DNA of 62,277 nucleotides from Rhizobium sp. Q54 (GTDB taxonomy: Bacteria; Pseudomonadota; Alphaproteobacteria; Rhizobiales; Xanthobacteraceae): contig CAMAWF010000012.1 in NCBI GenBank assembly GCA_945861895.1, forward strand, positions 1 through 62,277, in the 5' to 3' direction. Each line of letters begins with the position of its first letter. Position 1 is the first letter of the stretch. The notes below the pieces were generated by a model. That model was not told the origin of the DNA. It did not search any database and saw nothing but the letters and a program-made list of their open reading frames with translations. A program made the position numbers and the translations under genes. Below, piece by piece: positions 24,881 through 51,973 of the stretch.

Positions 24881-25989
24881 CACATCACCTCGATGTCGGC
24901 CTGAATGGCCCCGGCCGCCTTGATCGCTTGAAGAATGGCGATCAGATCGCGCGGACCGATGCCAAGCGAGTTGAGGCCGTCGACCAGTTGCTGCAACGAG
25001 ACGCCTTCCTTGACCAGAGCGAGCTTGCGGCCGTCTTCCTGCACGCCGATGCGCGTGCGCGCGACCGTCCGGGTTTCGCCGACTCGCGCGAATGCGCTGG
25101 GCTGGCTCACCTGCGCCGTCTCGGTGATGGTGACGGTGAGATTGCCTTGCGCCACCGCCACCATCGACACGCGCACGTCGCGGCCCATGACGATGATGCC
25201 GGAACGCTCGTCGATCACGATTTTGGCGGACAGATCGGGCTCGACCTGCAATTGCTCGATCTCGGTGAGCAGCGCCACCACGTTGCCCCGGTACTGCTGG
25301 GGTATCGTCAGTTGCACGGTCGAGGGATCGAGCGGCTCGGCGGTCGCCGAACCGATGAAGTCGTTGACCGCGGCGGCGATGCGCTTGGCGGTGGTGAAAT
25401 CCGGATTGCGCAGCGCCATGCGCAACTGGCTCAGGCGGTTGAGTGCGAATTCGATTTCGCGCTCGATCAAGCCGCCATTGGCGATGCGCCCGACGGTTGG
25501 AACGCCGCGCACGATCTTGGCCGCTTCGCCTTCGGCCTGGAAGCCGCCGATGGCGACTGAGCCTTGCGCCACCGCATAGACGTTGCCATCGGCGCCGAGC
25601 AGGGGCGTCACCAGCAGCACGCCGCCTTGCAGGCTCTTGGAATCGCCAAGCGCGGAGACGGTGACGTCGATGCGCGTGCCTTGCGTTCCAAACGCCGGCA
25701 GATTGGCCGTCACCATGACGGCGGCGACATTGCCGGTGCGGATCTGCGCGCCGCGGATGTTGACGCCAAGGCGCTCAAGCATCGCTTGCAGCGATTGCTT
25801 GGTGAAGGGAATGTTGGTGAGCGTGTCGCCGGTGCCGTTGAGGCCGACGACCAGGCCGTAGCCGATCAGCTGGTTCTGCCGCACGCCCTCGACATTGGCG
25901 AGGTCCTTGATGCGTGACGCCGCCGCCGCTGGCAGCGAAGCACAGACGATCAGAAGGGCCGCGACGAGCGCGGTTCGCAAGGTCCTCAT
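24880..25989 (-). CDS. flgI: flagellar P-ring protein
   Basis: A 369-aa FlgI with a signal peptide (MRTLRTALVAALLIVCASLP, cleavage after AAAA) and the diagnostic mature start SRIKDLANVEGVRQNQLIGY. The GLVVGLNGTGDT and IGPRDLIAILQAIKAAGAIQ segments are canonical. It forms the periplasmic P ring around the rod. GGGGAG is nine bases before ATG 25989; the frame extends to 26127 but not with FlgI sequence. A sigma-54 type site lies about 40 bases upstream, and fliX diverges on the other side. Confidence 0.96.
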   Translation of the reverse strand: MRTLRTALVAALLIVCASLPAAAASRIKDLANVEGVRQNQLIGYGLVVGLNGTGDTLTNIPFTKQSLQAMLERLGVNIRGAQIRTGNVAAVMVTANLPAFGTQGTRIDVTVSALGDSKSLQGGVLLVTPLLGADGNVYAVAQGSVAIGGFQAEGEAAKIVRGVPTVGRIANGGLIEREIEFALNRLSQLRMALRNPDFTTAKRIAAAVNDFIGSATAEPLDPSTVQLTIPQQYRGNVVALLTEIEQLQVEPDLSAKIVIDERSGIIVMGRDVRVSMVAVAQGNLTVTITETAQVSQPSAFARVGETRTVARTRIGVQEDGRKLALVKEGVSLQQLVDGLNSLGIGPRDLIAILQAIKAAGAIQADIEVM

Positions 25990-26029
25990 CAACACTGCTC
26001 CCCAATGTGAGGTCGGACTGACAACTCCT

Positions 26030-26047
26030 ATGCGAATGTCGTGCCAC
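26030..26047 (-). promoter_or_regulatory. sigma-54 type promoter of flgI-flgJ-flgN
   Basis: On the minus strand TGGCACGACATTCGCA has GG at 26045-26044 and GC at 26033-26032, ten bases between, with a perfect TGGCACG -24 element. Start of transcription would be near 26020, leaving a leader of about 30 nt before flgI. Confidence 0.7.
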
Positions 26048-26160
26048 GGCCGCCGCGGAATCAACCGTCTGAAAAGACGATGCTTTTTGTTGGGTCGCGA
26101 TTTTTTGCCGGGGCGTGAAGCGGGCACGAAAGTCCAAGGCGGTATTTTTTGCCGGGCGCT

Positions 26161-26175
26161 TTAACCGTCTATTAA
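26161..26175 (+). promoter_or_regulatory. CtrA-type box upstream of fliX
   Basis: TTAACCGTCTATTAAC is a perfect TTAA-N7-TTAA site followed by CC. If centred near -35, transcription would begin around 26203, which favours the internal fliX start at 26239. In Caulobacter fliX is CtrA-dependent. Confidence 0.65.
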
Positions 26176-26238
26176 CCATAAAAGGACAGGCTGACCGGTA
26201 TGCAGGGGCCGGACTTTGTCCGGCTGGGACATTCCGCC

Positions 26239-27307: not shown

Positions 27308-28486
27308 TCAGGCGGCTTCGTGCTTGGCCGTGGGACGCTTGAAGTCAAGCGCGGATAGCGGCTGCGGCCGGCTGAACAGGTAGCCTTGCGCCTGGGTGCA
27401 GCCCGCAGCGCACAGCAGGGAAAACTGTTCCTCGGTCTCGACGCCCTCGGCGGTGGTTTGGATATCCAGGCTTCGTCCGAGGCCGGTGATGGCCGCAACG
27501 ATAGCCGCGCAGTCGGCGCGGTTCGGCATTTCGGCCACGAATGACCGGTCGATCTTGATTTTGTCGAACGGGAACATGCGGAGATAGCCGAGCGAGGAAT
27601 ATCCGGTGCCGAAATCGTCGAGAACTATCCCGACGCCGAGGTTCTTAAGTTGATGCAAGACGGCGACGTTGCCGGCGTCTTTCTGCAATAGAACCGACTC
27701 GGTGATCTCCAGCTCCAGACGCTGCGGCGAAAGCCCGGACACAGCGAGTGCGTCGGTGACAATCTCCACCAGGTTGCCGTTCCTGAACTGGATCGGGGAC
27801 AGGTTGACCGCGAGCTTAATGTCGGCGGGCCAGTTCACCGCGTCGGCGCAGGCGTTGCGCAAAATCCATTCGCCGAGCGGAACGATGAGTCCGATCTCCT
27901 CGGCCAAGGGGATGAAGGTGTCCGGTGCGATCAATCCGCGTTGCGGGTGATGCCAGCGGATGAGCGCTTCGGCGCCGCACGTGTTCTGCGTTGAGACGTC
28001 GATTACGGTCTGATAATAGACCTCGAATTCGTTGCGCGCGATGGCGTTGCGCAGATCGACTTCCAGCGCGCGGCGCAGGCGAATTTTTGTGTCCATGTCG
28101 GCTTCAAAAAATCGGAAATCCTTGCGGCCTTCCGATTTGGCCCGGTAAAGCGCGAGATCGGCATTTTTCAAGAGTATGTCGGCATCCTCGCCATCGAAAG
28201 GCGCCAATGCGATCCCGATGCTGATGCCGACGTTGATCTCATGGCCGTCGATCTCATAGGGCGCGCCGATGGTTTCCAGCAAACGATTTGCGAGCCCGAT
28301 CGCCGCTTCCTTCTGATTGCTTTCGCCAATCTGAATGATGGCGAATTCGTCGCCGCCGAGCCGGCCGACGGTATCGGTTTCGCGCATAAGCCGCCGCAAT
28401 CGCTGCGCGACGGCCTTGAGCAGGGCATCGCCCACCGGATGGCCGAGCGAATCGTTCACGGCCTTGAACATGTCCAGGTCGAACAC
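27308..28486 (-). CDS. C-terminal half of an interrupted GGDEF-EAL gene
   Basis: A 392-codon segment from a GTG at 28486. It has most of a GGDEF domain (FDLDMFKAVNDSLGHPVGDA, then RLGGDEFAIIQ with the GGDEF active site) and a full EAL domain (EALIRWHHP, GIVLDDFGTGYSSLGYLRMF, FDKIKIDRSFV), so both cyclase and phosphodiesterase signatures are intact. It is in frame with the upstream half (28508-30007), from which one TAA separates it. It lacks the first GGDEF helix, so it would not fold as a cyclase alone; a stand-alone EAL phosphodiesterase is possible. No Shine-Dalgarno sequence precedes the GTG. Confidence 0.75.
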   Translation of the reverse strand: MFDLDMFKAVNDSLGHPVGDALLKAVAQRLRRLMRETDTVGRLGGDEFAIIQIGESNQKEAAIGLANRLLETIGAPYEIDGHEINVGISIGIALAPFDGEDADILLKNADLALYRAKSEGRKDFRFFEADMDTKIRLRRALEVDLRNAIARNEFEVYYQTVIDVSTQNTCGAEALIRWHHPQRGLIAPDTFIPLAEEIGLIVPLGEWILRNACADAVNWPADIKLAVNLSPIQFRNGNLVEIVTDALAVSGLSPQRLELEITESVLLQKDAGNVAVLHQLKNLGVGIVLDDFGTGYSSLGYLRMFPFDKIKIDRSFVAEMPNRADCAAIVAAITGLGRSLDIQTTAEGVETEEQFSLLCAAGCTQAQGYLFSRPQPLSALDFKRPTAKHEAA

Positions 28487-28507
28487 GAAGAGCGAGAAAT
28501 TGTCGCC

Positions 28508-30007
28508 TTAGCGGCGCAACCGGTTGAGCGCCTCGTCCATTTTCTCGCGGAACAACACGCGGTTCGCGAGATCGGTCAACGCATCGTGGCGCGCCATATG
28601 GGCGACCCTCTCCTCGGCGCGCTGGCGCTCGGTGATGTCATCGTGCGTGGCCACCCAGCCGCCGCCGGCCGCCGGCTGATTATGCACGGCTATCACCCGG
28701 CCGTCGCGGAGATGCGTTGTGATGTAGCTGTGCCTTCCTTGCGCAAGCCTGGCGCGGAGATTGGCAAGGTATTGATCCGCGTCGCCGGTGAAGCTGCCGG
28801 CCGCTTTGCGGTGTTCCAGAAGTTCGCGCAGCGTGCACCCGGGTTTGACGATGTCGTGCGACAAGCCATACATCCGCAGATATTGCTCGTTGCACACCAC
28901 CAGCCGCCCCTCGGCATCGAACATCCCAAGGCCTTGCGACATATTGTTGAGGGCCGCATCGACCCGCGCATTGGCCTGCTCAAGTTCACGGGAATTTTCG
29001 ACAAGATTAGCCTCGCGCTCGGCAAGCGAAGCTTCCGAATTCAGCAGCCGACGGAATTGCGTGCTCAGGGCTCTGAACAGGATGAGCGAGCAGAAAACGG
29101 CAAGCAAAGTGCCGAGGCCAATGAACGTCGCCCGCCGGCGCCAGTTCGCCAGTGCCGCCGACTCCGATACCGCGACATTGATGACGATCGGGTAATCCTG
29201 CAATGGACGAACCGCGACAAGCCGGGCTTCGCCATCGAAATAACCGGGCGAACGATAGTGTCCGCCTCCATCCGCAACCAGTTTGTACCAGGGCGAATGC
29301 GCCGGAATCTTTTGGCCTGCGCGGTCTTCGGGGTCGGGATGGCGAACCAGAATGGTGCCATCGCGGCGCAGGAACAGGAACGATTGATTACGCAGCGACG
29401 TGATTGAGCTGTAGATGTGCTGGAAATAGGCGAGTTTCACGCCAACCAGCACGACGCCGAGAAACTCATCGTTAGGACCCTTGATGCGTTGCGCGAAAAA
29501 TATCGATTGCTGGCCCGACACGCGGTTCAGCAATAAGTCGCTGATGTAGAGATCTTCCTCGCTGCTGGTCTTGAAATACCGATAGTAGTCGCGATCGGAA
29601 AGATCGGTCGCCGGTGTCGGCCACATGCGCGAGGTACTGGCGAGTTGTCCATTTTTGTCAACGAACGCGATCACATCGGCTTGCGACAATCGCTCGACAC
29701 GTTCTTTGAGCAGGCGATTTGCGGATTCGCTACGGAGAAAGCGGTGGTGCTCATCGGGTGTGCGTCCGGCGCGATGAGCGAGTTGCTCCTGCAATTCCGT
29801 CATCACATTCGCAATCGACTGCACGGATCGTGCGGTCTGTTCGGCCAGCACGGTTGCAATGTTACCCGCGTCGGTCGATGCGTCGGTGATGGCGTCGGAT
29901 CGCAATTGCCAAATCGTCACGCCGGTCGCCATCACCCCAAAGCCAATGAGGCCGATGGCGACGCAAATCAGACCGCGAAACGTAACGCTACGCGCGTGAC
30001 GAACCAT
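28508..30007 (-). CDS. N-terminal half of an interrupted sensor GGDEF-EAL gene
   Basis: A 499-codon segment: membrane span (about residues 12-32), a long periplasmic Cache-type sensor (about 35-285, including DLSDRDYYRYF and ISDLLLNRVSGQQSIFFAQR), a second span (about 290-312), a PAS domain (LGMFDAEGRLVVCNEQYLRM) and the beginning of GGDEF (ARHDALTDLANRVLFREKMD). It stops at an in-frame TAA (28510-28508) inside the first GGDEF helix, after EALNRLRR. The same frame continues GDNFSLFVFDLDMFK. The intact gene would encode 899 residues including the stop position: a membrane sensor of cyclic-di-GMP metabolism. As it stands, it is a sensor without output. Confidence 0.75.
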   Translation of the reverse strand: MVRHARSVTFRGLICVAIGLIGFGVMATGVTIWQLRSDAITDASTDAGNIATVLAEQTARSVQSIANVMTELQEQLAHRAGRTPDEHHRFLRSESANRLLKERVERLSQADVIAFVDKNGQLASTSRMWPTPATDLSDRDYYRYFKTSSEEDLYISDLLLNRVSGQQSIFFAQRIKGPNDEFLGVVLVGVKLAYFQHIYSSITSLRNQSFLFLRRDGTILVRHPDPEDRAGQKIPAHSPWYKLVADGGGHYRSPGYFDGEARLVAVRPLQDYPIVINVAVSESAALANWRRRATFIGLGTLLAVFCSLILFRALSTQFRRLLNSEASLAEREANLVENSRELEQANARVDAALNNMSQGLGMFDAEGRLVVCNEQYLRMYGLSHDIVKPGCTLRELLEHRKAAGSFTGDADQYLANLRARLAQGRHSYITTHLRDGRVIAVHNQPAAGGGWVATHDDITERQRAEERVAHMARHDALTDLANRVLFREKMDEALNRLRR

Positions 30008-36244: not shown

Positions 36245-37099
36245 ATGATCCGCTTTGCGCGCGATTTCCGGCTGATCCCGATCGTCCTGGTGGCGGTCGG
36301 CGCTCTCTTCATCCTCAAGAGCTTCGGGCTCGTGCTTGACGGCGGCTATACGCTCGGGGAGCGGCTGGCCAATCGCGGCAAGGAGACCTTGAAAATCACG
36401 CAGTTCGAGCCGCCGGCCACGATTGCGCCCGCCGCAGTAAATACCGGCGATATGCCTGCCACACCCACCACACCCAGGTCATCCTGGGCCTCGACGGTGT
36501 TCAATTATCCAGACGTCACCGGCTCGGTCGGCGAGAATAAATCGGCGGCGGAAATTCCGCTCAAGGTCACGGAGAAACCGACGGCTCCGATTGCAAATTC
36601 CGGCGGCACCGCGATCCCGCTCGACAGCGGCAGATCCGCTTCCGCCGGCGAACGGGCGATTCTTGAGCGGCTGCACGACCGCCGCCAGGAACTCGATGCG
36701 CGCGGGCGCGAAATGGAAATGCGCGAAAGCCTCATCAAGGCGGCGGAAAAGCGTCTCGAAGCGCGCGTGGCGGAACTCAAGGAAGTCGAGAACCGCATCG
36801 GCACCGCCATGAACAAGCGCGACGAGGCGGAGACGACGCGCTTCAAAAGCCTCGTCACAATGTATGAAAGTATGAAAGCCAAGGACGCAGCCCGGATTTT
36901 CGAGCGCCTCGACATGAAAATCCTGCTGGAGGTCTCCACCCAGATCAATCCACGGCGGATGTCCGATATTCTCTCGCAGATGTCCTCGGAAGCGGCCGAG
37001 CGGCTCACGGTGGCGCTTGCCAACCGCGCCAGTGCGGCAGGCGACAAACCAAATCCCGGAAATCTGCCGAAAATCGAAGGCCGGCCGGCGGGCGGCTGA
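36245..37099 (+). CDS. motE: MotE-family motility chaperone
   Basis: A 284-aa protein with one N-terminal span (LIPIVLVAVGALFILKSFGL), a disordered Pro/Thr-rich linker, a coiled coil (about 135-215, GERAILERLHDRRQELDARG onward) and an MgtE-N-like end (YESMKAKDAARIFERLDMKI, then QINPRRMSDILSQMSSEAAE). This is the MotE plan; in Sinorhizobium MotE is a periplasmic chaperone for MotC. ATG 36245 is preferred to the TTG at 36230 overlapping the previous stop. Confidence 0.82.
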   Translation: MIRFARDFRLIPIVLVAVGALFILKSFGLVLDGGYTLGERLANRGKETLKITQFEPPATIAPAAVNTGDMPATPTTPRSSWASTVFNYPDVTGSVGENKSAAEIPLKVTEKPTAPIANSGGTAIPLDSGRSASAGERAILERLHDRRQELDARGREMEMRESLIKAAEKRLEARVAELKEVENRIGTAMNKRDEAETTRFKSLVTMYESMKAKDAARIFERLDMKILLEVSTQINPRRMSDILSQMSSEAAERLTVALANRASAAGDKPNPGNLPKIEGRPAGG

Positions 37100-37103
37100 A
37101 CGC

Positions 37104-37118
37104 GGTTAACGCGGCCTT
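37104..37118 (+). promoter_or_regulatory. CtrA-type box upstream of the TPR gene
   Basis: TTAACGCGGCCTTAA is a perfect TTAA-N7-TTAA site, just five bases after the motE stop. It would place a start of transcription near 37146, giving the large TPR gene its own cell-cycle control inside the motility cluster. Confidence 0.55.
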
Positions 37119-37194
37119 AATTTCCAAACCCTAGGCTATCGCGACGGGTGTTGTGGTCGAGGGTGGCGGGGCGACCCGCCAGCGTAGGTTTTGT

Positions 37195-42001: not shown

Positions 42002-42760
42002 CTACGTCCCGTAGCTCTGGATCAGCGAGCCGGCGACCAGGCTCCAGCCGTCCACCAGCACGAAAAATATCAGCTTGAACGGCAGCGACACCACGACCGG
42101 CGGCAGCATCATCATGCCCATCGACATCAGCACCGAGGCGACGACCAGATCGATAATGAGAAACGGCAGGAACAGCAGGAAGCCGATCTCGAAGGCGCGT
42201 TTGAGTTCCGAAATCATGAAGGCCGGCACCAGCACGCGCAGCGACATGTCTTCCGGCCGCGCGGGCGCAGCCTCGTTCGACATATCCACGAATAATTTGA
42301 GATCCTTCTCGCGCACGTTCTTCTGCATGAAGCTGCGCAGCGGATCGGTTGTGCGCTCGAACGCCTGCTCCATGCTGATCTCGTTGTTGATCAGCGGTTT
42401 GATTCCGGTGTCATAGGCGCGCTGAAGCGCCGGACCCATCACAAAGGCCGTGAGGAACAAGGCCAGCGACACGATCACCGCATTGGGCGGCGCGGTGGCG
42501 GTGCCGAGCGCGGTGCGCAGCAGCGAGAGTACCACCACGATGCGGGTGAACGAGGTCATCATAACGAGAATCGACGGCGCGAGCGAAAGCACCGTGAGCA
42601 GCGCGATCATCTGGATCACGCGCTCGGTCAGCCCGCTGCCTTGTCCGAAATTGACGCTGATGTCCTGCGCGGCCGCGTGCGTCGCCGCAGCCATGATCGC
42701 CACTACCCCAACCGCCACCGTCGCCAGACGGACACGGCGGTCGGACGTGGTTGCCGTCAA
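42002..42760 (-). CDS. fliP: flagellar export gate protein FliP
   Basis: A 252-aa FliP with a signal sequence and four membrane spans. Family motifs TVLSLAPSILVMMTSFTRIV, LFLTAFVMGPALQRAYDTGI and VLVPAFMISELKRAFEIGFL are intact. It forms the core of the export gate with FliQ and FliR. Translation starts at TTG 42760, whose last two bases start the TGA stop of fliO (TTGA), so it is tightly coupled. Confidence 0.96.
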   Translation of the reverse strand: MTATTSDRRVRLATVAVGVVAIMAAATHAAAQDISVNFGQGSGLTERVIQMIALLTVLSLAPSILVMMTSFTRIVVVLSLLRTALGTATAPPNAVIVSLALFLTAFVMGPALQRAYDTGIKPLINNEISMEQAFERTTDPLRSFMQKNVREKDLKLFVDMSNEAAPARPEDMSLRVLVPAFMISELKRAFEIGFLLFLPFLIIDLVVASVLMSMGMMMLPPVVVSLPFKLIFFVLVDGWSLVAGSLIQSYGT

Positions 42761-43641
42761 GTTTTTCCTGAAGGACGGCCCAGCAAACTCGCCATCTCCT
42801 GTTCGAGATTGTCGTAGAGGTGCTTGGCGGCAACCTTGGGGTCGACGCGGACTGCATTCGGATCGCCGGCGGGGCCCCGCCCATTATCCAGGAATTTCGG
42901 ACGCGCCGGCGCCTGATCCGGCTGGGGCATCGCCAGAGCATCGGTTACCGGCGGCCGTCCATCGCCCTGCATGGGATTGCGCAAGGCGGCTTCCAGCCGT
43001 TGCGCCATCTCGGCAAGATTGCTGTCTTGTTCGGCGGCGGCCTGTTCGGCGCGCGTCAAATTGGAAGCCGGCGATGGGCGCGCGGCAGGCGTGCCGAAAT
43101 CGGAAGGCGGATTGAGCCGGCTTGAAAGCTCGGCCGCCAGACCCGTGAGCGAAGAGGAGGACGAACGCGGGCGTATGATGGGTTCGCTTTGCGGCGGCGT
43201 TGCCTCGTATGCGAGTATCGAGCGATTAGACCGCGCGGTTGGCGCCGGTGTGGGTGCCGCTGCCGGTTCGGGCGCCGGCTGCAATGGCCATGAATTGCCT
43301 TCGGCCGCCGGGGCGTGCGTCGTTTTGCGTGCGATCTCGCGCGCGCCGACGCTGCGTACGATATTCGGCTCGACCACCACATCGGTCGGGCCGCCGATCA
43401 TCAGCAGGTGCTCGGTATTGTCGCGGCGGATCAAAACCAGGCGGCGGCGCCCGTCGATCGATGCCGCATCGATCACCGCCAGGCGGGGCTGGCGTCCGCG
43501 CGCGGCGCCCGCGCCGATACGATCGGCGCCATAGCGGCGCACGACCCAGGCGGTCAGCGCGATCAGCCCAAGCACGATCAGGAAGGCGATGAAGAATTTC
43601 GCGGGGAGCGGCATTGCCGAGCCAAACAGGCTGTCGAACAT
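42757..43641 (-). CDS. fliO: flagellar biosynthesis protein FliO
   Basis: A 294-aa FliO. An N-terminal span (about residues 14-36, KFFIAFLIVLGLIALTAWVV) is followed by a FliO domain (QPRLAVIDAASIDGRRRLVL and IRRDNTEHLLMIGGPTDVVV). The C-terminal 170 residues are Pro/Ala/Ser-rich, probably disordered, and longer than average. It aids FliP assembly. ATG 43641 is the start; an upstream extension to 43737 is not FliO-like. Confidence 0.9.
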   Translation of the reverse strand: MFDSLFGSAMPLPAKFFIAFLIVLGLIALTAWVVRRYGADRIGAGAARGRQPRLAVIDAASIDGRRRLVLIRRDNTEHLLMIGGPTDVVVEPNIVRSVGAREIARKTTHAPAAEGNSWPLQPAPEPAAAPTPAPTARSNRSILAYEATPPQSEPIIRPRSSSSSLTGLAAELSSRLNPPSDFGTPAARPSPASNLTRAEQAAAEQDSNLAEMAQRLEAALRNPMQGDGRPPVTDALAMPQPDQAPARPKFLDNGRGPAGDPNAVRVDPKVAAKHLYDNLEQEMASLLGRPSGKT

Positions 43642-43833
43642 CAATCTGCTCCGCGCCGCATGCTGCAAACCGCGCAGGCGTGAATCGCCCGAGTGGTTAA
43701 CGTGGTGGGTAACATTTGCCGCCTCAAATACTAACAAACTCTTAATAAAGCGGCACGTTCCGCTTGCCTAGGGCCGCAGCCATAAACAATTCGCACCTTA
43801 AAGGAAACCCGTTACAGGGCGCCAGCCGCCGGT

Positions 43834-43848
43834 TTAACCCGCCATTAA
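43834..43848 (+). promoter_or_regulatory. CtrA-type box upstream of flgB...cckA (and possibly fliOP)
   Basis: TTAACCCGCCATTAACC is a perfect TTAA-N7-TTAAC site in the 299-bp gap between divergent fliO and flgB. Centred about 100 bases before flgB, it is well placed for the class II rod and export operon; being near-symmetric it could also serve fliO-fliP, 193 bases away. Confidence 0.68.
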
Positions 43849-43940
43849 CCATACACCCGGCAAACTCTGCCTAGCTGCGGCAAGACAACGGCTTGCCTGC
43901 AACTTGTTTGCAACCGGGCCGCCGGGGCTGGGGGGACATC

Positions 43941-44357
43941 ATGGCCATTACCGACATACCTATTCTCTCCATGCTGCGGACGCGGTTGCAGTGGCACCAG
44001 GCGCGCCAGCGCGTCCTGGCGGAGAATGTCTCCAACTCCGATACCCCCAATTTCCGTCCGCAAGATCTGGCGCCTCCGAAAATGAACGAGCCGACATTGA
44101 CCGCGCGCAACTCGGTTGTGTCCAGCGTCGCGCTCACGCGCACCGAATCCGGTCACATCGGGGGGCTTTCGCTTTCGACGTCGTCGCCGTTCCGCAGCGA
44201 GAGCAAAGGCCAATACGAAGTTCGCCCGACCGGAAACGCGGTGACGCTGGAGGACGAGATGATGAAAGTGGCTTCCAACCAGATGGATTACCAGGCGGCG
44301 ACCGCACTGTATTCGCGCAGCCTCGGCCTCATCAAGACCGCGCTCGGTAAACGCTAA
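43941..44357 (+). CDS. flgB: flagellar proximal rod protein
   Basis: A 138-aa FlgB: starts MAITDIPILSMLRTRLQWHQ and has LAENVSNSDTPNFRPQDLAP and the C-terminal VASNQMDYQAATALYSRSLG. First gene of flgB-flgC-fliE-fliQ-fliR-flhB-cckA. ATG 43941 gives the family start; the open frame to 43893 is not FlgB-like. Confidence 0.95.
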   Translation: MAITDIPILSMLRTRLQWHQARQRVLAENVSNSDTPNFRPQDLAPPKMNEPTLTARNSVVSSVALTRTESGHIGGLSLSTSSPFRSESKGQYEVRPTGNAVTLEDEMMKVASNQMDYQAATALYSRSLGLIKTALGKR

Positions 44358-44412
44358 ACGCCGCTGCGGATTCGCATGCGAGACCGCGCCCCAGATTTTA
44401 AGGAGAACGATC

Positions 44413-44823
44413 TTGGATTTTCTCAAAAGCATGTCCATCGCCGCCTCCGGCTTGCGCGCTCAAGCCGGCCGCATGCGCGTGATTTCCGAAAACATCGCCA
44501 ACGCCGACTCGACGCCGGGCAAGGCAGGCGGCGATCCATACCGGCGCAGGCTGATGAGCTTCAGCTCCGAGGTTGACCGTGCGCTCGATGCGCGTGTTGT
44601 CGGTCTTGGCGGCGTGCGAACCGATAACTCCGAATTCCGGATGAAATACGAGCCGGGCCATCCGGCCGCCGACGTCAATGGCAACGTCAAATATCCCAAC
44701 GTCAATCCGCTGGTCGAAATGACCGACATGCGTGACGCCCAGCGTTCCTACGAAGCCAACGTCAACGTGATCGGCGCAACGCGCCGCATGATCCAGCGCA
44801 CCATCGACATTCTCAAAGCTTAA
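44413..44823 (+). CDS. flgC: flagellar rod protein
   Basis: A 136-aa FlgC starting at TTG 44413 with AAGGAGA seven bases upstream. MDFLKSMSIAASGLRAQAGR and ISENIANADSTPGKAGGDPY at the N-terminus and DAQRSYEANVNVIGATRRMI at the C-terminus are typical. Confidence 0.95.
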   Translation: MDFLKSMSIAASGLRAQAGRMRVISENIANADSTPGKAGGDPYRRRLMSFSSEVDRALDARVVGLGGVRTDNSEFRMKYEPGHPAADVNGNVKYPNVNPLVEMTDMRDAQRSYEANVNVIGATRRMIQRTIDILKA

Positions 44824-44836
44824 AAGAGGCTGACCC

Positions 44837-45148
44837 ATGCCGTCACCGATTTCCGCCGCCAACGCCTACAGCGCAATTTCACGCCTTACCGATCCCGCCG
44901 CCGGTTTTGCCAAAGGCGCAAGCGGGGAGGGCGCCAATTTCGGATCCGTGCTCAAGGATGCGCTCGGTGCCGTCGCCGAAGCCGGAAAAAAGTCGGACAC
45001 GCAATCGCAGGCGCTGGCCGCCGGCAAAGCCAATATCGTCGATGTGGTGACGGCGGTGGCGGAAACCGAGGTGGCGATCGACGCGGTGGTTGCGGTGCGC
45101 GACCGTGTGATCCATGCCTACGAAGAAATCATGAAGATGCCGATCTGA
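44837..45148 (+). CDS. fliE: hook-basal body complex protein FliE
   Basis: A 103-aa FliE with the C-terminal helix AVAETEVAIDAVVAVRDRVI, then HAYEEIMKMPI, as in the family. It links the MS ring to the rod. RBS AGAGG lies before the ATG. The N-terminal 30 residues are variable. Confidence 0.92.
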   Translation: MPSPISAANAYSAISRLTDPAAGFAKGASGEGANFGSVLKDALGAVAEAGKKSDTQSQALAAGKANIVDVVTAVAETEVAIDAVVAVRDRVIHAYEEIMKMPI

Positions 45149-45202
45149 CTTGGCGCTGATTTGGCACACCCGCGCTGCGGGCAAGAAGAAAAGGAAAATG
45201 CA

Positions 45203-45469
45203 ATGACCGGACCGGAAACGCTCGATGTTGCGCGCGACGCGATCCTGACGCTGATTCTGGTGGCGAGCCCGGTCATGCTGGTGGGCCTTGCGGTCGGCGT
45301 CGGCATCTCGCTGTTTCAGGCATTGACGCAAATCCAGGAAATGACGCTGGTCTTCGTGCCGAAGATTCTCGCCATATTTATCGCCATGCTGATCTCGCTG
45401 CCGTTCATGGCTTCGATCATGCAAGGTCAGATGCATCGCATCGCCGCGCGCATTATCAGCGGCGGCTGA
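45203..45469 (+). CDS. fliQ: flagellar export gate protein FliQ
   Basis: An 88-aa protein with two membrane spans: ILTLILVASPVMLVGLAVGV and LVFVPKILAIFIAMLISLPF, with LFQALTQIQEMTL between, the FliQ signature. ATG 45203 is chosen on an AAGGAAAA sequence upstream and family length. Confidence 0.95.
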   Translation: MTGPETLDVARDAILTLILVASPVMLVGLAVGVGISLFQALTQIQEMTLVFVPKILAIFIAMLISLPFMASIMQGQMHRIAARIISGG

Positions 45470-45475
45470 AAATTC

Positions 45476-46246
45476 ATGCGGATCGATATCTCGTTTCTGC
45501 CCGCGCTCGCGGCATCCTTTCTGCTGGTGTTCGCGCGCATCGGCACCATGGTGATGCTGCTGCCGGGCATCGGCGAACTTTCGGTGCCGGCGCGCGTGCG
45601 GCTCACGCTGGCGCTGGTGCTCACCGCGATCCTGTTGCCGCTGCATCGCGGCGCCTATGCGGTCGATCTGCAAGCTATCGGTCCGGTGCTGCTGATGATG
45701 GGGCAGGAACTCCTGATCGGCGCCGTGCTCGGTCTCACCGCGCGGCTGGCGATTTCGGCGCTACAGGTCGCGGGCTCGGTGGTGGCGCAGCAACTCGGTC
45801 TCGGCTTTGTCACCGCCGTTGACCCGACGCAGGGCCAGCAGGGCGTCATCGTCGGAAATTTTCTCACCGTGCTCGGGATCACGCTGATCTTCGCCACCGA
45901 TCTGAATCATCTGGTGATCGCGGCGCTCAACGACAGCTACAAACTGTTTCAACCGGGAGAGCTCCCGGTCACCGGCGACATGGCCGATCTGGTGACGCGC
46001 ACAGTCACCACGGCGTTTCGCATCGGCGTGCAATTGTCGGCGCCGTTTTTGGTGTTCGGCCTGCTGTTCAATCTCGGGCTCGGCTTGTTGTCGCGACTGA
46101 TGCCGCAAATGCAAGTGTTCTTCGTCGGGTTGCCGTTGTCGATTCTGCTCGGCTTCCTGCTGCTGCTGCTCGTCGTCGGCGCGATGATGAGCACTTTCCT
46201 CGGCTATCTCGAAGGCGTCCTCGGCGCGCTCGTGCCGCAATCGTGA
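45476..46246 (+). CDS. fliR: flagellar export gate protein FliR
   Basis: A 256-aa protein with about six membrane spans. FARIGTMVMLLPGIGELSVP, LGLGFVTAVDPTQGQQGVIV and the long C-terminal hydrophobic FFVGLPLSILLGFLLLLLVV identify FliR. It completes the FliPQR gate. Confidence 0.95.
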   Translation: MRIDISFLPALAASFLLVFARIGTMVMLLPGIGELSVPARVRLTLALVLTAILLPLHRGAYAVDLQAIGPVLLMMGQELLIGAVLGLTARLAISALQVAGSVVAQQLGLGFVTAVDPTQGQQGVIVGNFLTVLGITLIFATDLNHLVIAALNDSYKLFQPGELPVTGDMADLVTRTVTTAFRIGVQLSAPFLVFGLLFNLGLGLLSRLMPQMQVFFVGLPLSILLGFLLLLLVVGAMMSTFLGYLEGVLGALVPQS

Positions 46247-46265
46247 CCCGCTAGGACGAGCGAAC

Positions 46266-47336
46266 ATGGCCGAGGAACAAGACGATATCGAAAGATCAGA
46301 AGACCCGACGCAAAAGAAGCTCGACGACGCGCACAAGCGTGGCGACGTCGTCAAGAGCCAGGAAGTCAGCAACTGGTTCATCATTGCCGGCGCGACGCTG
46401 GTGCTCATGGCCTTTTCCGGCGGCATGGGGTCCGGCCTCAGCACGACGTTCCGCGGCCTGTTTGCGAACGCCCACGCTATCCGCACCGACGGCCCCGGGC
46501 TTTTGCGGCTTGCGGAAAAGCTCGGCGCCGAGCTGATCGCGGCGATTGCGATACCTTTCCTGCTGCTCGCGCTCGCGGCGCTGGCCGGCAACCTTATTCA
46601 GCACCGTCTGGTCTGGTCGGCCGAGACGCTCAAGCCGAAGCTCTCGAAGATTTCGCCGATGGCGGGCATGAAGCGGCTGTTCTCCAAACAGGCGCTGGCG
46701 AATTTCGCCAAGGGTTTGGCCAAGCTCGTGCTCGTCGGCACCGTGATGTGGATGTTGATGTGGCCCGAACGCGACCGTCTTGAGGGCCTGACGTGGACCG
46801 ACCCGGCGATGATAATGCCGTTCGTCCAGTCGATGGCGCTCAAGGTGCTCGGCGTTGTGGTCGCCATTCTCGCTTTGATCGCGGCCGCGGATTACCTGTT
46901 CCAGTACCGGCAATGGTACGAACGGCAGAAGATGTCGCTGCGCGAACTCAAGGAAGAGTTCAAGCAGAGCGAAGGCGACCCCGCCATCCGCGGCAAGATC
47001 AGGCAAATCCGCCAGCAGCGCATGAGCAGGCGCATGATCGCGGCGGTGCCCAAAGCCGCTGTGGTCATCACCAATCCGACCCACTATGCGATCGCCCTGC
47101 AATATGACCGCGGCATGGATGCCCCGATTTGCGTCGCCAAGGGCGTCGATGCACTCGCACTCAAGATCCGCGAAGTGGCGGGCCAGCATTCGATCCCGAT
47201 TGTCGAAAACCCGCCGCTCGCACGCGCCTTGCACGCCGCCATCGAGGTCGACCAGGCCATCCCGCCCGAACATTACAAGGCTGTCGCCGAAGTGATCGGC
47301 TATGTGATGCGGCTGCGCCGCGCATTTAAGCCATAA
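46266..47336 (+). CDS. flhB: flagellar export switch protein FlhB
   Basis: A 356-aa FlhB with four membrane spans in residues 35-215 and the autocleavage motif NPTH at 270-273 (VVITNPTHYAIALQY), which switches export from hook to filament substrates. The N-terminus EDPTQKKLDDAHKRGDVVKS is typical. The stop is only six bases before cckA. Confidence 0.96.
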   Translation: MAEEQDDIERSEDPTQKKLDDAHKRGDVVKSQEVSNWFIIAGATLVLMAFSGGMGSGLSTTFRGLFANAHAIRTDGPGLLRLAEKLGAELIAAIAIPFLLLALAALAGNLIQHRLVWSAETLKPKLSKISPMAGMKRLFSKQALANFAKGLAKLVLVGTVMWMLMWPERDRLEGLTWTDPAMIMPFVQSMALKVLGVVVAILALIAAADYLFQYRQWYERQKMSLRELKEEFKQSEGDPAIRGKIRQIRQQRMSRRMIAAVPKAAVVITNPTHYAIALQYDRGMDAPICVAKGVDALALKIREVAGQHSIPIVENPPLARALHAAIEVDQAIPPEHYKAVAEVIGYVMRLRRAFKP

Positions 47337-47342
47337 GACGCC

Positions 47343-50075
47343 ATGTTCCGGCCGGACTTGGGTGAAGGAGCCTTGCGCGAAGGACTTGCGCAGACCGCCC
47401 GCCCTGGGGCACTCAGGGAATCGGGTGCCGCTGCGGCGCGGCCCGACACGAGGCTCAATTCCGGCATGGCGGCGCGGAACCTCAACAACGAGCAAGATCC
47501 GGGACAAGCCCAGGAACAGGTCCCGGCACAGGCGGGACTTGGACGCGAGGCGTTCGACCGCGGGCAGAGTGCGCCGCGCAGCGGCAGCATCGGCCTCGTG
47601 CTGTTGGTCGCTGTGGCGCTGGTCGGCGCCGCCGCCGGTCTGCTCTATGTCGGCCGCAGCAATGCCGAGCCCTATATTCTCGCTTTGCTATCGCTGCTGG
47701 CCACCATCGGCGTATTTTCGCTGTTCGCGATGGCCTCAGGGGTCATACGCCTGCCGGGCAAGTCCGGCGGCCATGCGTTTGCCAAGGTGCTGGTGGACGG
47801 CTCCTTTGACGGCGTCGTCGTCACCGACCAGAGCGGCCGCGTATTCTATGCCAACGCCACCTATCTCGACCTGATCGACGCAACCGGCGCCGACGACGTG
47901 CGCCCGATCGAGCGGGTCTTTATCGGCGATCCGGATGTCTCGGAATCGATCTATCGGCTGCTCAAGGCCGGTCGCGAGGGCCGCCGTCTGGTGGAGGAAG
48001 TGCGCATCACCGGCGCCACGGGCGAGCCGGCGCGCTGGTTGCGGCTGCGCGTGCGCCCGCTCGGCGACGGCAGGCACGATGCCAAGCTCACAGTATGGTC
48101 GGTCGCGGATGTGACGCGCGACCGGCAGGGCCAGGAGAACGTCTTTCAGGAATTGCAACGCGCCATCGATTATCTCGATCACGCGCCGGCAGGGTTCTTC
48201 TCGGTCGATGCCGATGGCGCGCTGGTCTATCTCAACGCCACGCTTGCCGCCTGGCTTGGCCACGATCTCGCGCAAGTGGGCGCCGGCTCGCTCAAGCTGT
48301 CCGACATTGTGGCGGGCGACGGCGCCGCATTGCTCACCACGCTTAATGCCGCGCCGGGCGAAGTGAAGACGGAAGTGCTCGACCTCGATCTCAAGGATCG
48401 CAGCGGCCGCCCGGTTCCCGTGCGCCTGTTCCACAAGGTTGCGTTCGGCGCCGACGGCGCTGCCGGTGTCTCGCGCACGCTGGTGCTTAACCGCGCCCGC
48501 GACGACGGCACCGATCCGCAGCGCGCCGCCGAAGTGCGCTTCATGCGCTTCTTCCAGAATACGCCGATGGCCATCGCGACCGTCAACAAGTCCGGCAGGA
48601 TCGCGCGCAGCAATGCGCGGTTCGCGCGGCTGTTTCACGACGCACTCAAAGGCGACGACCGCTCGATCCTCTCGGTGGTGGCCGAGCGCGATCGCCCCCC
48701 GCTGGAAGCGATGATCCGCAAGGCGGCCGAAGGGCAGGGCGATATTCTTCCCGTTGACGCCGCGCTCGCCGGTCAAAGCGAGCGCTGGGCAAGCTTCTTC
48801 GTCTCCGCCGTCGAAGAAAAGGACAGCGACGCGGAAGCGGCGATTGTCTATGCGCTGGAGACCACGACCCAGCGCACGCTGGAGAACCGCGTCAATCAGC
48901 AGCAGAAGATGGAATCGGTCGGCCAGCTCGCCGGCGGCATCGCGCACGACTTCAACAACGTGCTCTCCGCCATCATGATGGCGACCGACTTTTTGCTCAA
49001 CGCACACAAGCCGACCGACCCGTCATTTTCCGACATCATGCAGATCAAGCAGAACGCCAACCGGGCGGCGGCGCTGGTGCGCCAATTGCTGGCGTTCTCG
49101 CGCAGGCAAACGTTGCGCCCGCAGGTGCTCGATCTCGGCGAGGTGCTTTCCGATCTCGGAATGCTGCTCAAGCGGTTGATCGGCGAAAAAGTCACGCTCG
49201 ATGTCGTGCATGGACGCGACCTGTGGCCGGTCAAGGTCGACATCTCCCAGCTCGAGCAGGTGATCGTCAATCTCGCGGTCAACGCGCGCGACGCCATGCC
49301 GGATGGCGGCAAGCTCACGGTGCGAACCGCCAACGTGACGGCCGAGGTGAGCGCGAAGTTTTCCTACAAGGGCATGCCGGCCGCCGATTACGTGATGATC
49401 GAAGTATCCGACACCGGCCATGGCATTCCGGCCACGATCATCGAGAAAATCTTCGAGCCGTTCTTTTCGACCAAGGAGGTCGGCAAGGGCACCGGGCTCG
49501 GCCTTTCCACCGTGTATGGCATCGTCAAACAGACCGGCGGATTCATCTATGCGGAATCCGAGCAAGGACATCCCACGATGTTCCGCATCTTCCTGCCGCG
49601 TCATGTAGCGGGCGAGGAGGACATCATGCCCAGCAATGCCGCCGAGATCGCCGGCGCGATCGCTGCCGCCGACGACATGGTGCGTGCGACCACAACCGAT
49701 CTTACCGGCGTAGGTACGATCCTGTTGGTTGAGGACGAGGAAGGACTGCGCGCGCTCAATGCCCGCGGTCTAGCCTCACGCGGCTATACCGTGCTTGAAG
49801 CCGGCAACGGCGTCGAGGCGATCGAGGTTATGGAAAAGCGCGGCGGCACCGTCGATCTCGTCGTCTCCGACGTGGTGATGCCGGAAATGGACGGACCGAC
49901 GCTGCTCAAGGAATTGCGCAAGCGCGATCCCGATCTCAAGATCATCTTCGTCTCCGGTTATGCCGAGGATGCGTTCCAGAAAAACCTGCCGGAGCCCGGA
50001 CAATACGTGTTCCTGCCGAAGCCGTTCACGCTCAAGCAGCTAGTCGCCGCCGTAAAAGAGACGATGGCGCCCTGA
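47343..50075 (+). CDS. cckA: hybrid histidine kinase CckA
   Basis: A 910-aa CckA-type kinase. An 80-residue disordered N-terminus is followed by two spans (about 82-104 and 112-132), PAS-like domains (about 143-250, 265-380, 395-500), the DHp helix with QKMESVGQLAGGIAHDFNNV (His near residue 535), a HATPase domain (VNLAVNARDAMPDGGKL, GTGLGLSTVYGIVKQTGG) and a receiver domain (VLVVSDVVMPEMDG-type, Asp near 842). IMQIKQNANRAAALVRQLLA and FSRRQTLRPQVLDLGEVLSD are specific to CckA. It feeds phosphate through ChpT to CtrA. It follows flhB by 6 bp, so it is probably in the flagellar operon. Confidence 0.93.
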   Translation: MFRPDLGEGALREGLAQTARPGALRESGAAAARPDTRLNSGMAARNLNNEQDPGQAQEQVPAQAGLGREAFDRGQSAPRSGSIGLVLLVAVALVGAAAGLLYVGRSNAEPYILALLSLLATIGVFSLFAMASGVIRLPGKSGGHAFAKVLVDGSFDGVVVTDQSGRVFYANATYLDLIDATGADDVRPIERVFIGDPDVSESIYRLLKAGREGRRLVEEVRITGATGEPARWLRLRVRPLGDGRHDAKLTVWSVADVTRDRQGQENVFQELQRAIDYLDHAPAGFFSVDADGALVYLNATLAAWLGHDLAQVGAGSLKLSDIVAGDGAALLTTLNAAPGEVKTEVLDLDLKDRSGRPVPVRLFHKVAFGADGAAGVSRTLVLNRARDDGTDPQRAAEVRFMRFFQNTPMAIATVNKSGRIARSNARFARLFHDALKGDDRSILSVVAERDRPPLEAMIRKAAEGQGDILPVDAALAGQSERWASFFVSAVEEKDSDAEAAIVYALETTTQRTLENRVNQQQKMESVGQLAGGIAHDFNNVLSAIMMATDFLLNAHKPTDPSFSDIMQIKQNANRAAALVRQLLAFSRRQTLRPQVLDLGEVLSDLGMLLKRLIGEKVTLDVVHGRDLWPVKVDISQLEQVIVNLAVNARDAMPDGGKLTVRTANVTAEVSAKFSYKGMPAADYVMIEVSDTGHGIPATIIEKIFEPFFSTKEVGKGTGLGLSTVYGIVKQTGGFIYAESEQGHPTMFRIFLPRHVAGEEDIMPSNAAEIAGAIAAADDMVRATTTDLTGVGTILLVEDEEGLRALNARGLASRGYTVLEAGNGVEAIEVMEKRGGTVDLVVSDVVMPEMDGPTLLKELRKRDPDLKIIFVSGYAEDAFQKNLPEPGQYVFLPKPFTLKQLVAAVKETMAP

Positions 50076-50273
50076 CCGGTTCCGGCAAACGCGACCTTTC
50101 GTACCGCACTGCACAAGGCATTGCTGGAGCATGGCAGGGGTAATTATCGGGCAACGGCTCCGCCGGGGGGCATAAAGCACTTATAAAATGGCTGCGACTC
50201 CAGCACCCCTTACCAAACCAGGCCGAAACACCATATGGTCTGGCGGCCCGAGCCGGGCTTTGAAGGGGTAGCC

Positions 50274-51209
50274 ATGATCCGCCGATTCCGCCCATTGCTT
50301 GCACTGCTCGCCGTTGTCACGGCTCTTGTCATGCTGGCCGCTCACGCCGATGCGCGTCCCTCCAGTGGCGGCAGCCGCGGTTCGCGCACCTTCTCGGCGC
50401 CGGCCTCTACCAACACCGCGCCGCGCGGCGCCGCGCCGATCGAGCGCAGCATGACGCAGCCCGGCCGCCCTGCGGCGGTGGGACAGGCAAGCGCGCCCGC
50501 CGGCGGCTTTTTCAATCGGCCGGGTTTGCTCGGCGGACTTGCCGCCGGATTCATCGGCGCCGGATTGTTCGGCATGCTGTTCGGTCACGGCATGTTCAGC
50601 AATATGGGCGGGCTCGCCTCCATCCTCGGCCTCATCCTGCAGATCGGCCTGATCGTGATCGTGGCACGGCTTGCCTGGGCGTGGTGGCAGCGGCGCAACC
50701 AGCCGGCCTTGGCCGGCCCGATGCCGCGGCAGATGCACGAGTATGGCGATCCCCGCTCCGGCCTGAGCGCGACGACGATGGGCAACGCGACCATGCCGGG
50801 CAACGAGGATGTCGCCATCGTCAAGCAGGACTACGACGCGTTCGAGACTCTGCTCGGCGAAATCCAGACCGCCTATGGCGCCGAGGATCTTGGCGCCCTG
50901 CGCGCGCGCGCGACGCCGGAAATGTTCTCCTACTTCTCCGATGATCTCGCCAAGAACGCCAGCCGCGGCCTCGTCAACAAAATTTCCGGCGTGAAGCTAT
51001 TGCAAGGCGATCTGTCCGAAGCCTGGAGCGAGGGCGCAACCGAATTCGCGACGCTTGCCATGCGTTTCTCGCTCATCGATCAAACGGTCGAACGCGCAAG
51101 CGGCCGCGTGGTCGAGGGCGGCGTCTCGCCCGTCGAAGCGACCGAGTTGTGGACCTTCATGCGCGCGCGCGGCGGCGAATGGCTGCTCTCCGCCATTCAG
51201 CAGACCTAG
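50274..51209 (+). CDS. Tim44-like domain protein
   Basis: A 311-aa protein. A signal or anchor segment (MIRRFRPLLALLAVVTALVM) is followed by an Ala/Ser/Pro linker, two further hydrophobic glycine-rich segments (about residues 82-105 and 112-132) and a C-terminal Tim44/MrpL45-like domain from about 180 (VKQDYDAFETLLGEIQTAYG; then ELWTFMRARGGEWLLSAIQQ). In alphaproteobacteria such proteins are inner-membrane proteins of uncertain function. ATG 50274 is preferred over 50235. Confidence 0.85.
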   Translation: MIRRFRPLLALLAVVTALVMLAAHADARPSSGGSRGSRTFSAPASTNTAPRGAAPIERSMTQPGRPAAVGQASAPAGGFFNRPGLLGGLAAGFIGAGLFGMLFGHGMFSNMGGLASILGLILQIGLIVIVARLAWAWWQRRNQPALAGPMPRQMHEYGDPRSGLSATTMGNATMPGNEDVAIVKQDYDAFETLLGEIQTAYGAEDLGALRARATPEMFSYFSDDLAKNASRGLVNKISGVKLLQGDLSEAWSEGATEFATLAMRFSLIDQTVERASGRVVEGGVSPVEATELWTFMRARGGEWLLSAIQQT

Positions 51210-51266: not shown

Positions 51267-51614
51267 TTAGGCGCTTTCGGCGGACGCTGGCTCGGCGGCC
51301 GGAGTGTCCCGATCGTCCGGCTTGGCGACGGCTGTCGGCTTAACCGGTTCGGCGATACGCTTTTCGAAATGCACGCCGATCTGGTTCGGCAGGCGCCATA
51401 CGACGTGGCAGTGCCGGTGCGGAGTATTGTTGCGCTGGCCCGACAACAACAAAGTAAAATTGTCGGGTAGCTGCTCGGAATTTTCCACATCCAGCCGCGC
51501 ACCGGTTTCGGAAATGTCCGCCACCACGCAGCCGTGTAATTGCGAATTTTCCATCGCCACCCATGCGGTGTATCGCATCGGCTTGCGTGAATTTTTGCGT
51601 TTCTCTTTTTGCAT
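51267..51614 (-). CDS. PilZ domain protein
   Basis: A 115-aa single PilZ domain with RKPMR (residues 10-14) as the RxxxR element and DISETG (33-38) as the D/NxSxxG element, so both cyclic-di-GMP binding motifs are present. The C-terminal 25 residues are disordered (VAKPDDRDTPAAEPASAESA). A CtrA-type box lies 42 bases upstream. Likely a c-di-GMP effector that could act on motility; target unknown. Confidence 0.88.
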   Translation of the reverse strand: MQKEKRKNSRKPMRYTAWVAMENSQLHGCVVADISETGARLDVENSEQLPDNFTLLLSGQRNNTPHRHCHVVWRLPNQIGVHFEKRIAEPVKPTAVAKPDDRDTPAAEPASAESA

Positions 51615-51655
51615 AGGGTTCTCTACGTCACGGACATGGGCGGCGGCCCGCCAAG

Positions 51656-51670
51656 TTAATGATGTGTTAA
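51656..51670 (-). promoter_or_regulatory. CtrA-type box upstream of the PilZ gene
   Basis: TTAATGATGTGTTAACC is a perfect TTAA-N7-TTAA site. If centred near -35 for the minus strand it would start transcription about 15 bases before the PilZ ATG. The rest of the 359-bp gap (51615-51973) shows no gene and probably includes the cold-shock leader. Confidence 0.6.
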
Positions 51671-51973
51671 CCGTTCGTGGCTCGACGCTATGGAACTATA
51701 ACGGGCGCGAATTACCAATTCATAAAGCGATATATGCGCCGGGCAGCAGTTGGCGGCGCATGAATTCTCAATTGTCATAGTGCCGGTGTCGCGACATTGA
51801 CCTCCCGGAAAAATTGGGGCTTATGTCCGCCCGCAACCTGGTTTTCGGCTTCAACTTGCTGACACGCTCCCGGTCTTTGGGTTGCGCTAACTCAAGTGAT
51901 TTCCCAAAACTTGGATTGTTGCCGCCCACGCGATACGCGCGCGGGCGTTCAATGCTAAGCGTGAAAGGATACG

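Follow-up and report, generated by a model that had tools for sequence, protein, structure and literature searches.

Genes and CtrA box at the flgB-cckA locus

The window analyzed here is a stretch of 62,277 nucleotides from Rhizobium sp. Q54 (contig CAMAWF010000012.1), in which cckA, encoding the predicted initiating kinase of the CckA-ChpT-CtrA phosphorelay, follows a run of flagellar genes. An initial annotation, made from the letters of this DNA, had proposed that cckA is mainly the last gene of a CtrA-activated operon, whereby phosphorylated CtrA (CtrA-P) raises the production of its own kinase in a positive feedback. The gene order on which this proposal was built, flgB-flgC-fliE-fliQ-fliR-flhB-cckA in one run on the forward strand, was borne out, all seven genes being identified with Pfam and NCBIfam models. 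The genes and the CtrA box were located as follows:

42002..42760, reverse strand: fliP (TIGR01103, 301.1 bits)
42760..43737, reverse strand: fliO-like gene, divergent from flgB (PF04347, 23.5 bits)
43834..43849, forward strand: CtrA box TTAACCCGCCATTAAC, a perfect TTAA-N7-TTAAC
43941..44357, forward strand: flgB, ATG at 43941 (NF004654, 171.6 bits)
44413..44823, forward strand: flgC, TTG start according to the list of open reading frames (ORFs) (TIGR01395)
44837..45148, forward strand: fliE (TIGR00205)
45203..45469, forward strand: fliQ (NF004671, TIGR01402)
45476..46246, forward strand: fliR (TIGR01400)
46266..47336, forward strand: flhB (TIGR00328, 364.4 bits)
47466..50075, forward strand: cckA, with ATG 47466 as the likely start by comparison, in an ORF open from 47343 (NF046020, Pfam)
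50235..51209, forward strand: Tim44-domain gene 3' of cckA (PF04280), a neighbor without part in the argument

The product of cckA scored 1234.6 bits against NF046020 (CckA, Brucella type; cut-off 1000) and 484.9 against the Caulobacter-type model NF046026, under the cut-off of 1000 for that model. All expected parts are present in Pfam searches (PAS domains, HisKA, HATPase_c and a C-terminal receiver), and one or more membrane segments were judged by eye at the N-terminus. ChpT (PF10090) and CtrA (NF045991, 422.8 bits, cut-off 350) are both encoded on contig C48 of the same genome. The match to NF046020 and the presence of both partners agree with the annotated identity of this protein, which is predicted to be the relay kinase.

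The box heading the flagellar genes was likewise found as annotated, in perfect form, and ends 91 nt before the flgB ATG. We take TTAA-N7-TTAA(C) to be the consensus of the CtrA box. Across the 3.77-Mb genome, the perfect pattern gave 13 forward and 10 reverse matches, compared with 4 and 10 for a reversed-pattern control. These matches correspond to 17 distinct places, 4 of which fall in this 62-kb contig against about 0.3 expected. The window holds further perfect boxes at 26161-26176, just upstream of flgI (24883-26127, reverse strand), at 37105-37120, between position 37099 and a 1295-amino-acid TPR ORF at 37153, and at 51655-51671, upstream of a PilZ-domain ORF (51270-51614, reverse strand) and with a cold-shock-domain ORF (51974) on its other side.

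No terminator-like site was found in 46200-47700, a region that includes the flhB-cckA junction (shuffled sequences gave 1.4). A sigma-70-like match agreeing at 9 of 12 positions lies inside flhB at 46788-46816 (mean of 0.2 in shuffles).

Conservation of the gene order and of the CtrA box

The linkage of flhB and cckA was surveyed in 150 genomes of the order, with thresholds of E <= 1e-60 for CckA and E <= 1e-25 for FlhB. CckA was found in 145 of the 150 and FlhB in 110, our own genome counted. Using the best CckA match per genome, we observed that in 81 of the 109 other genomes having both genes, cckA follows flhB on the same strand within 15 kb; between match edges, 66 of these pairs lie within 435 nt and 80 within 3.6 kb. 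The 28 unlinked genomes comprise 5 in which a native-type FlhB lies on a different contig and 23 with only another FlhB type (at most 40% identity), and flhB precedes cckA in 81 of the 86 order genomes with a native-type FlhB. A survey of 134 genomes of the class found CckA in 80 and FlhB in 86, and 50 of the 65 other genomes with both carry flhB before cckA (49 linked and 1 overlapping). Among named genera, the block was present in Bradyrhizobium, Nitrobacter, Tardiphaga, Rhodopseudomonas, Methylobacterium, Roseibium and Pseudovibrio.

Loci were then compared for the first 60 of the 81 linked order genomes, for 20 of the 35 with cckA and no FlhB match, for 20 of the 23 whose sole FlhB is of the other type (the three omitted have a late CckA match) and for 20 hand-picked members of the 50 class-linked genomes. 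flgB is present in 58 of the 60 linked order loci. The notion of an unusual joining of two pathways was discarded, since the layout is order-wide. Such an arrangement is widespread among alphaproteobacteria and of long standing, not a special device.

Part of this picture is already in print, as far as the available portions of the sources go, namely relay genes linked with flagellar genes in Rhodospirillum rubrum (PMC12363192) and a predicted CtrA-cckA feedback in Rhodobacterales (Brilli 2010, PMC2877005). The R. rubrum flagellar cluster contains ctrA, cckA and chpT. The present locus resembles it in associating cckA with flagellar genes but, unlike it, holds cckA alone of the three, ctrA and chpT lying together on contig C48. 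In Cereibacter (Rhodobacter) sphaeroides, the fla2 genes are under CckA-ChpT-CtrA (PMC6180460). CtrA acts directly on flagellar promoters there, as it may here, in that case with divergent flgB-fliI, and cckA is not named as a cluster member in the portions of that source available. Caulobacter has a fliQ-fliR-flhB operon (PMC12421884), in which the same three genes stand together and of which cckA is not named as a part in the available text. The flhB-cckA layout is not addressed in the available parts of PMC7200025, PMC8781033, PMC10954123, PMC12421884 and PMC4842269. One published account of the same gene set has 0 occurrences of 'cckA' and 'CtrA' in its main text, and nothing was found in the literature on 'flhB-cckA' or on cckA 'downstream of flhB'.

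We then compared the region between fliO and flgB. A perfect TTAA-N7-TTAA is present in 54 of the 57 usable order-survey loci (L085, whose contig starts within flgB, was set aside), while control spacings in the same 57 regions gave 14 (N5), 2 (N6), 0 (N8) and 0 (N9), so that the N5 control is not empty. Among the named loci, 49 carry the block and 44 span the whole fliO-flgB region; 43 of these 44 have the perfect box (controls: N5 2, N6 3, N8 0, N9 1). For the class-linked loci the count was 8 of 18. In the fliO-flgB regions of loci L039-L098, TTAA-N5-TTAA (14 of 57) is thus more frequent than the other control spacings.

Among loci that lack the flagellar block and have the fliO-like gene next to cckA, the perfect box was found in 0 of 40 from the order survey (20 from genomes without a FlhB match and 20 from those with only the other FlhB type; 5 of the 40 regions had no fliO match to bound them and were cut at a fixed length). 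This speaks against a box kept for cckA. Of the 30 named block-less loci, 5 have a perfect box at the junction of the fliO-like gene with cckA, which speaks for a box kept for cckA in that group. These five (L234, L236, L240, L245 and L265) come from a Microvirga, a Beijerinckiaceae metagenome-assembled genome, Methylovirgula, Methylosinus and Methylocystis; the four control spacings gave none. A direct action of CtrA on cckA or on the fliO-like gene is conceivable in these five. Taken over all loci, the CtrA box tracks the flagellar genes, being mostly absent where the block is absent while cckA remains.

The flhB-cckA spacer and the control of cckA

The initial annotation had placed cckA six bases after flhB. 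This distance stands only if the start is the first ATG, at 47343, but most relatives favor the in-frame ATG at 47466: their match to CckA begins at around residue 50-90, and the plausible starts of family members (MAT.., MTT.., MAP..) align with the latter codon. A handful of relatives count against it, their match starting at residue 5 (G291) or 6 (G302); in G291 the shared stretch coincides with the conserved DNA element listed below. We regard ATG 47466 as the likely, not the settled, start, leaving a 129-nt spacer after flhB. A CtrA site inside this spacer was ruled out by the lack of TTAA in 47337-47465. Its features are:

47337..47465, forward strand: probable flhB-cckA spacer, 129 nt, no TTAA, bounded by the start favored by family relatives
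47385..47413, forward strand: promoter-like element, CTTGCG (47385-47390) and GGCACT (47408-47413), conserved in the family

The element lies in a stretch that had been taken as the CckA N-terminus. In the family, CTTGC-N17/18-GGCA is kept in a spacer that otherwise aligns poorly, and TTGC is followed by GGCA at an offset of 21 or 22 in 17 of the 23 family loci with flhB, our own counted. The element was also the top pair of a dyad count that presupposed no pattern (15 of 23; at most 5 in five mononucleotide shuffles). Among the named loci it is present in 24 of the 26 grouped in a single clade of the CckA tree (offset 21 in 5, 22 in 19) and in 3 of the 54 others.

The element follows cckA rather than flhB. 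In two Rhodopseudomonas loci (L215, L219), flhB and cckA are about 2.9 kb apart, an acyl-CoA dehydrogenase gene on the opposite strand lying between them, and both loci have the element directly before cckA despite the inserted gene. L083 has a different opposite-strand gene, of the AhpC/TSA family, between flhB and cckA. The block-less loci L203 and L224 and the block-less family member G077 carry the element, and it was found in 5 of the 9 family loci without a flhB match, 2 of the other 4 holding only 320 bases upstream. From its position and conservation, we read the element as a candidate cckA promoter.

Our results make it fairly probable that the locus is the order's ancestral (subpolar-type) flagellar cluster, with fliP-fliO on one strand, flgB-flgC-fliE-fliQ-fliR-flhB on the other and cckA after them. 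CtrA-P would bind the conserved box at 43834 and switch on the basal-body and export-gate operon, while cckA would be transcribed mostly from its own promoter in the 129-nt spacer, to which the conserved bipartite element points. With a promoter of its own, the kinase could be made when the flagellar genes are off or absent. Since no terminator-like site was seen, a modest part of cckA expression may still depend on CtrA, through transcripts running on from the CtrA-controlled promoter.

Several observations weigh against this interpretation. GGCACT is a poor sigma-70 -10 box. A loose form of the element is not enriched in our genome (16 and 19 matches, against 14 and 20 for the reversed pattern), in a search that requires CCTTGC and so misses the ACTTGC site of the locus itself. 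The element is limited to the family and a few neighbors, and is absent within the family itself from 6 of 23, 2 of 26 and at least 2 of 9 loci in the three sets above. Dyad counts in 54 non-family linked order spacers gave no clear element (top pair 9, shuffles 6), mainly G+C-rich pairs. The five boxed block-less loci belong here as well. Finally, many loci are closely related and the order-survey and named sets may share species, so the counts are not independent. The same dyad count in 37 loci without a native flagellum showed no clear shared element (top 8, shuffles 5-6), again with mainly G+C-rich pairs.

The feedback on the kinase gene, as first proposed, is allowed by the perfect box, the one-strand gene order, the absence of a terminator-like site and the presence of the relay proteins, which together permit read-through. 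The conservation of the box before flgB adds to this, as do the five block-less loci that keep it at the fliO-cckA junction. In Rhodobacterales, CtrA control of cckA and divL has been predicted (Brilli 2010, PMC2877005), which is alike in having CtrA act on its own kinase gene. According to the available portions of that work, the prediction was drawn from promoter sites and concerns another order, whereas the effect here would be exerted by way of a flagellar operon, and cckA probably has a promoter of its own. Against the feedback, the box follows the flagellar genes, most block-less loci keep cckA without it, the spacer element before cckA persists without the operon, and opposite-strand genes separate flhB from cckA in the two Rhodopseudomonas loci and L083. 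A feedback loop is thus possible but not favored by the evidence, and we consider it doubtful that cckA is mainly the last gene of the operon.

A further explanation is that the gene order is purely inherited, the box and any read-through being irrelevant to cckA and the element representing another signal, such as a GANTC/GcrA-linked or post-transcriptional site. The extension of the linkage across the class is in line with this, and GANTC occurs within 18 of the 24 named element copies, compared with a fraction of 0.23 for 45-mers drawn at random from these regions; most GANTC-bearing copies are near-identical Bradyrhizobium-type sequences. GANTC is a GcrA-linked motif. The promoter-like geometry and position of the element, and its association with cckA rather than flhB, argue against this explanation, which seems to us quite improbable.

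A fliO-like gene beside cckA

In block-less loci the neighbor of cckA is the fliO-like gene. At our locus its product reaches the PF04347 cut-off (23.5 bits, cut-off 22) but not that of TIGR03500 (40.3, cut-off 55.25). Among the FliO-like proteins of 7 block-less relatives, 2 reach the Pfam cut-off, and FliO is the best match of all 7. The gene adjoins cckA in 35 of the 40 block-less order-survey loci by BLAST and in 37 after the five misses were inspected for motifs; of the remaining 3, L117 holds only 362 bases upstream, and L131 and L133 show no fliO-like gene. The 30 named block-less loci all have it, its presence being what defines that group; L242, the one further named locus lacking flhB, is truncated by its contig end. 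A quick CckA tree of 80 named loci, in which some rows are long, implies that the block came or went 6 or 7 times, with well-supported branches forcing no fewer than 6 of these events. We tentatively read them as losses.

Besides its FliO core, the FliO-like protein has a long disordered linker and, in many cases, an LExEMxxLLG-like C-terminus (relatives L099-L138, L203 and L224-L275). The LExEM-LL motif ends 56 of the 70 named FliO-like ORFs over 100 amino acids (24 of the 29 block-less ones). In closed ORFs of the order survey, several of which are short, it was found in 3 of 22 (block), 5 of 12 (no FlhB) and 4 of 12 (other FlhB type).

Singleton FliO in non-flagellated Rhizobiales has been reported, and FliO is thought to stabilize FliP in Salmonella (PMC12403147). 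Like our analysis, that report concerns Rhizobiales genomes that have a FliO-like gene but no other flagellar genes; its available portions give no position beside cckA. No literature statement placing singleton FliO beside cckA was found, PMC12403147 not being among the three papers that contain both FliO and CckA. Our own genome has FliP alongside the fliO-like gene. FliP had no match in 34 of the 35 order genomes with cckA and no FlhB match, in a search that misses 5 of 109 FlhB-positive genomes. The neighborhood of cckA was inspected in 19 of these 34, and 18 keep the fliO-like gene there. As FliP was not found there, the gene probably does something else in these genomes.

We do not claim the adjacency as proof of partnership with CckA, as two genes that flank the block become neighbors simply when it is lost. 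Only the retention of the fliO-like gene where FliP and FlhB were not found argues for a function, and it suggests a non-flagellar role. That this protein works with CckA, or in an envelope or cell-pole process that CckA reads, with fliO-like/cckA rather than flhB/cckA as the conserved unit, is an unlikely though conceivable extension.

Elsewhere on this flagellar contig, a Cache/PAS ORF (27311-30007, reverse strand) adjoins a GGDEF-EAL ORF and likely belongs to a c-di-GMP enzyme.

If cckA depended on the CtrA box of the flagellar operon, motility would be coupled to cell-cycle signaling across much of the order. The comparison points rather to a neighborhood preserved by evolution in which the kinase gene was free to have a promoter of its own. 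Loci in which the block is present, absent or separated from cckA by an opposite-strand gene form a natural test series for this question, and the puzzling singleton FliO of non-flagellated Rhizobiales gets a place, beside cckA.

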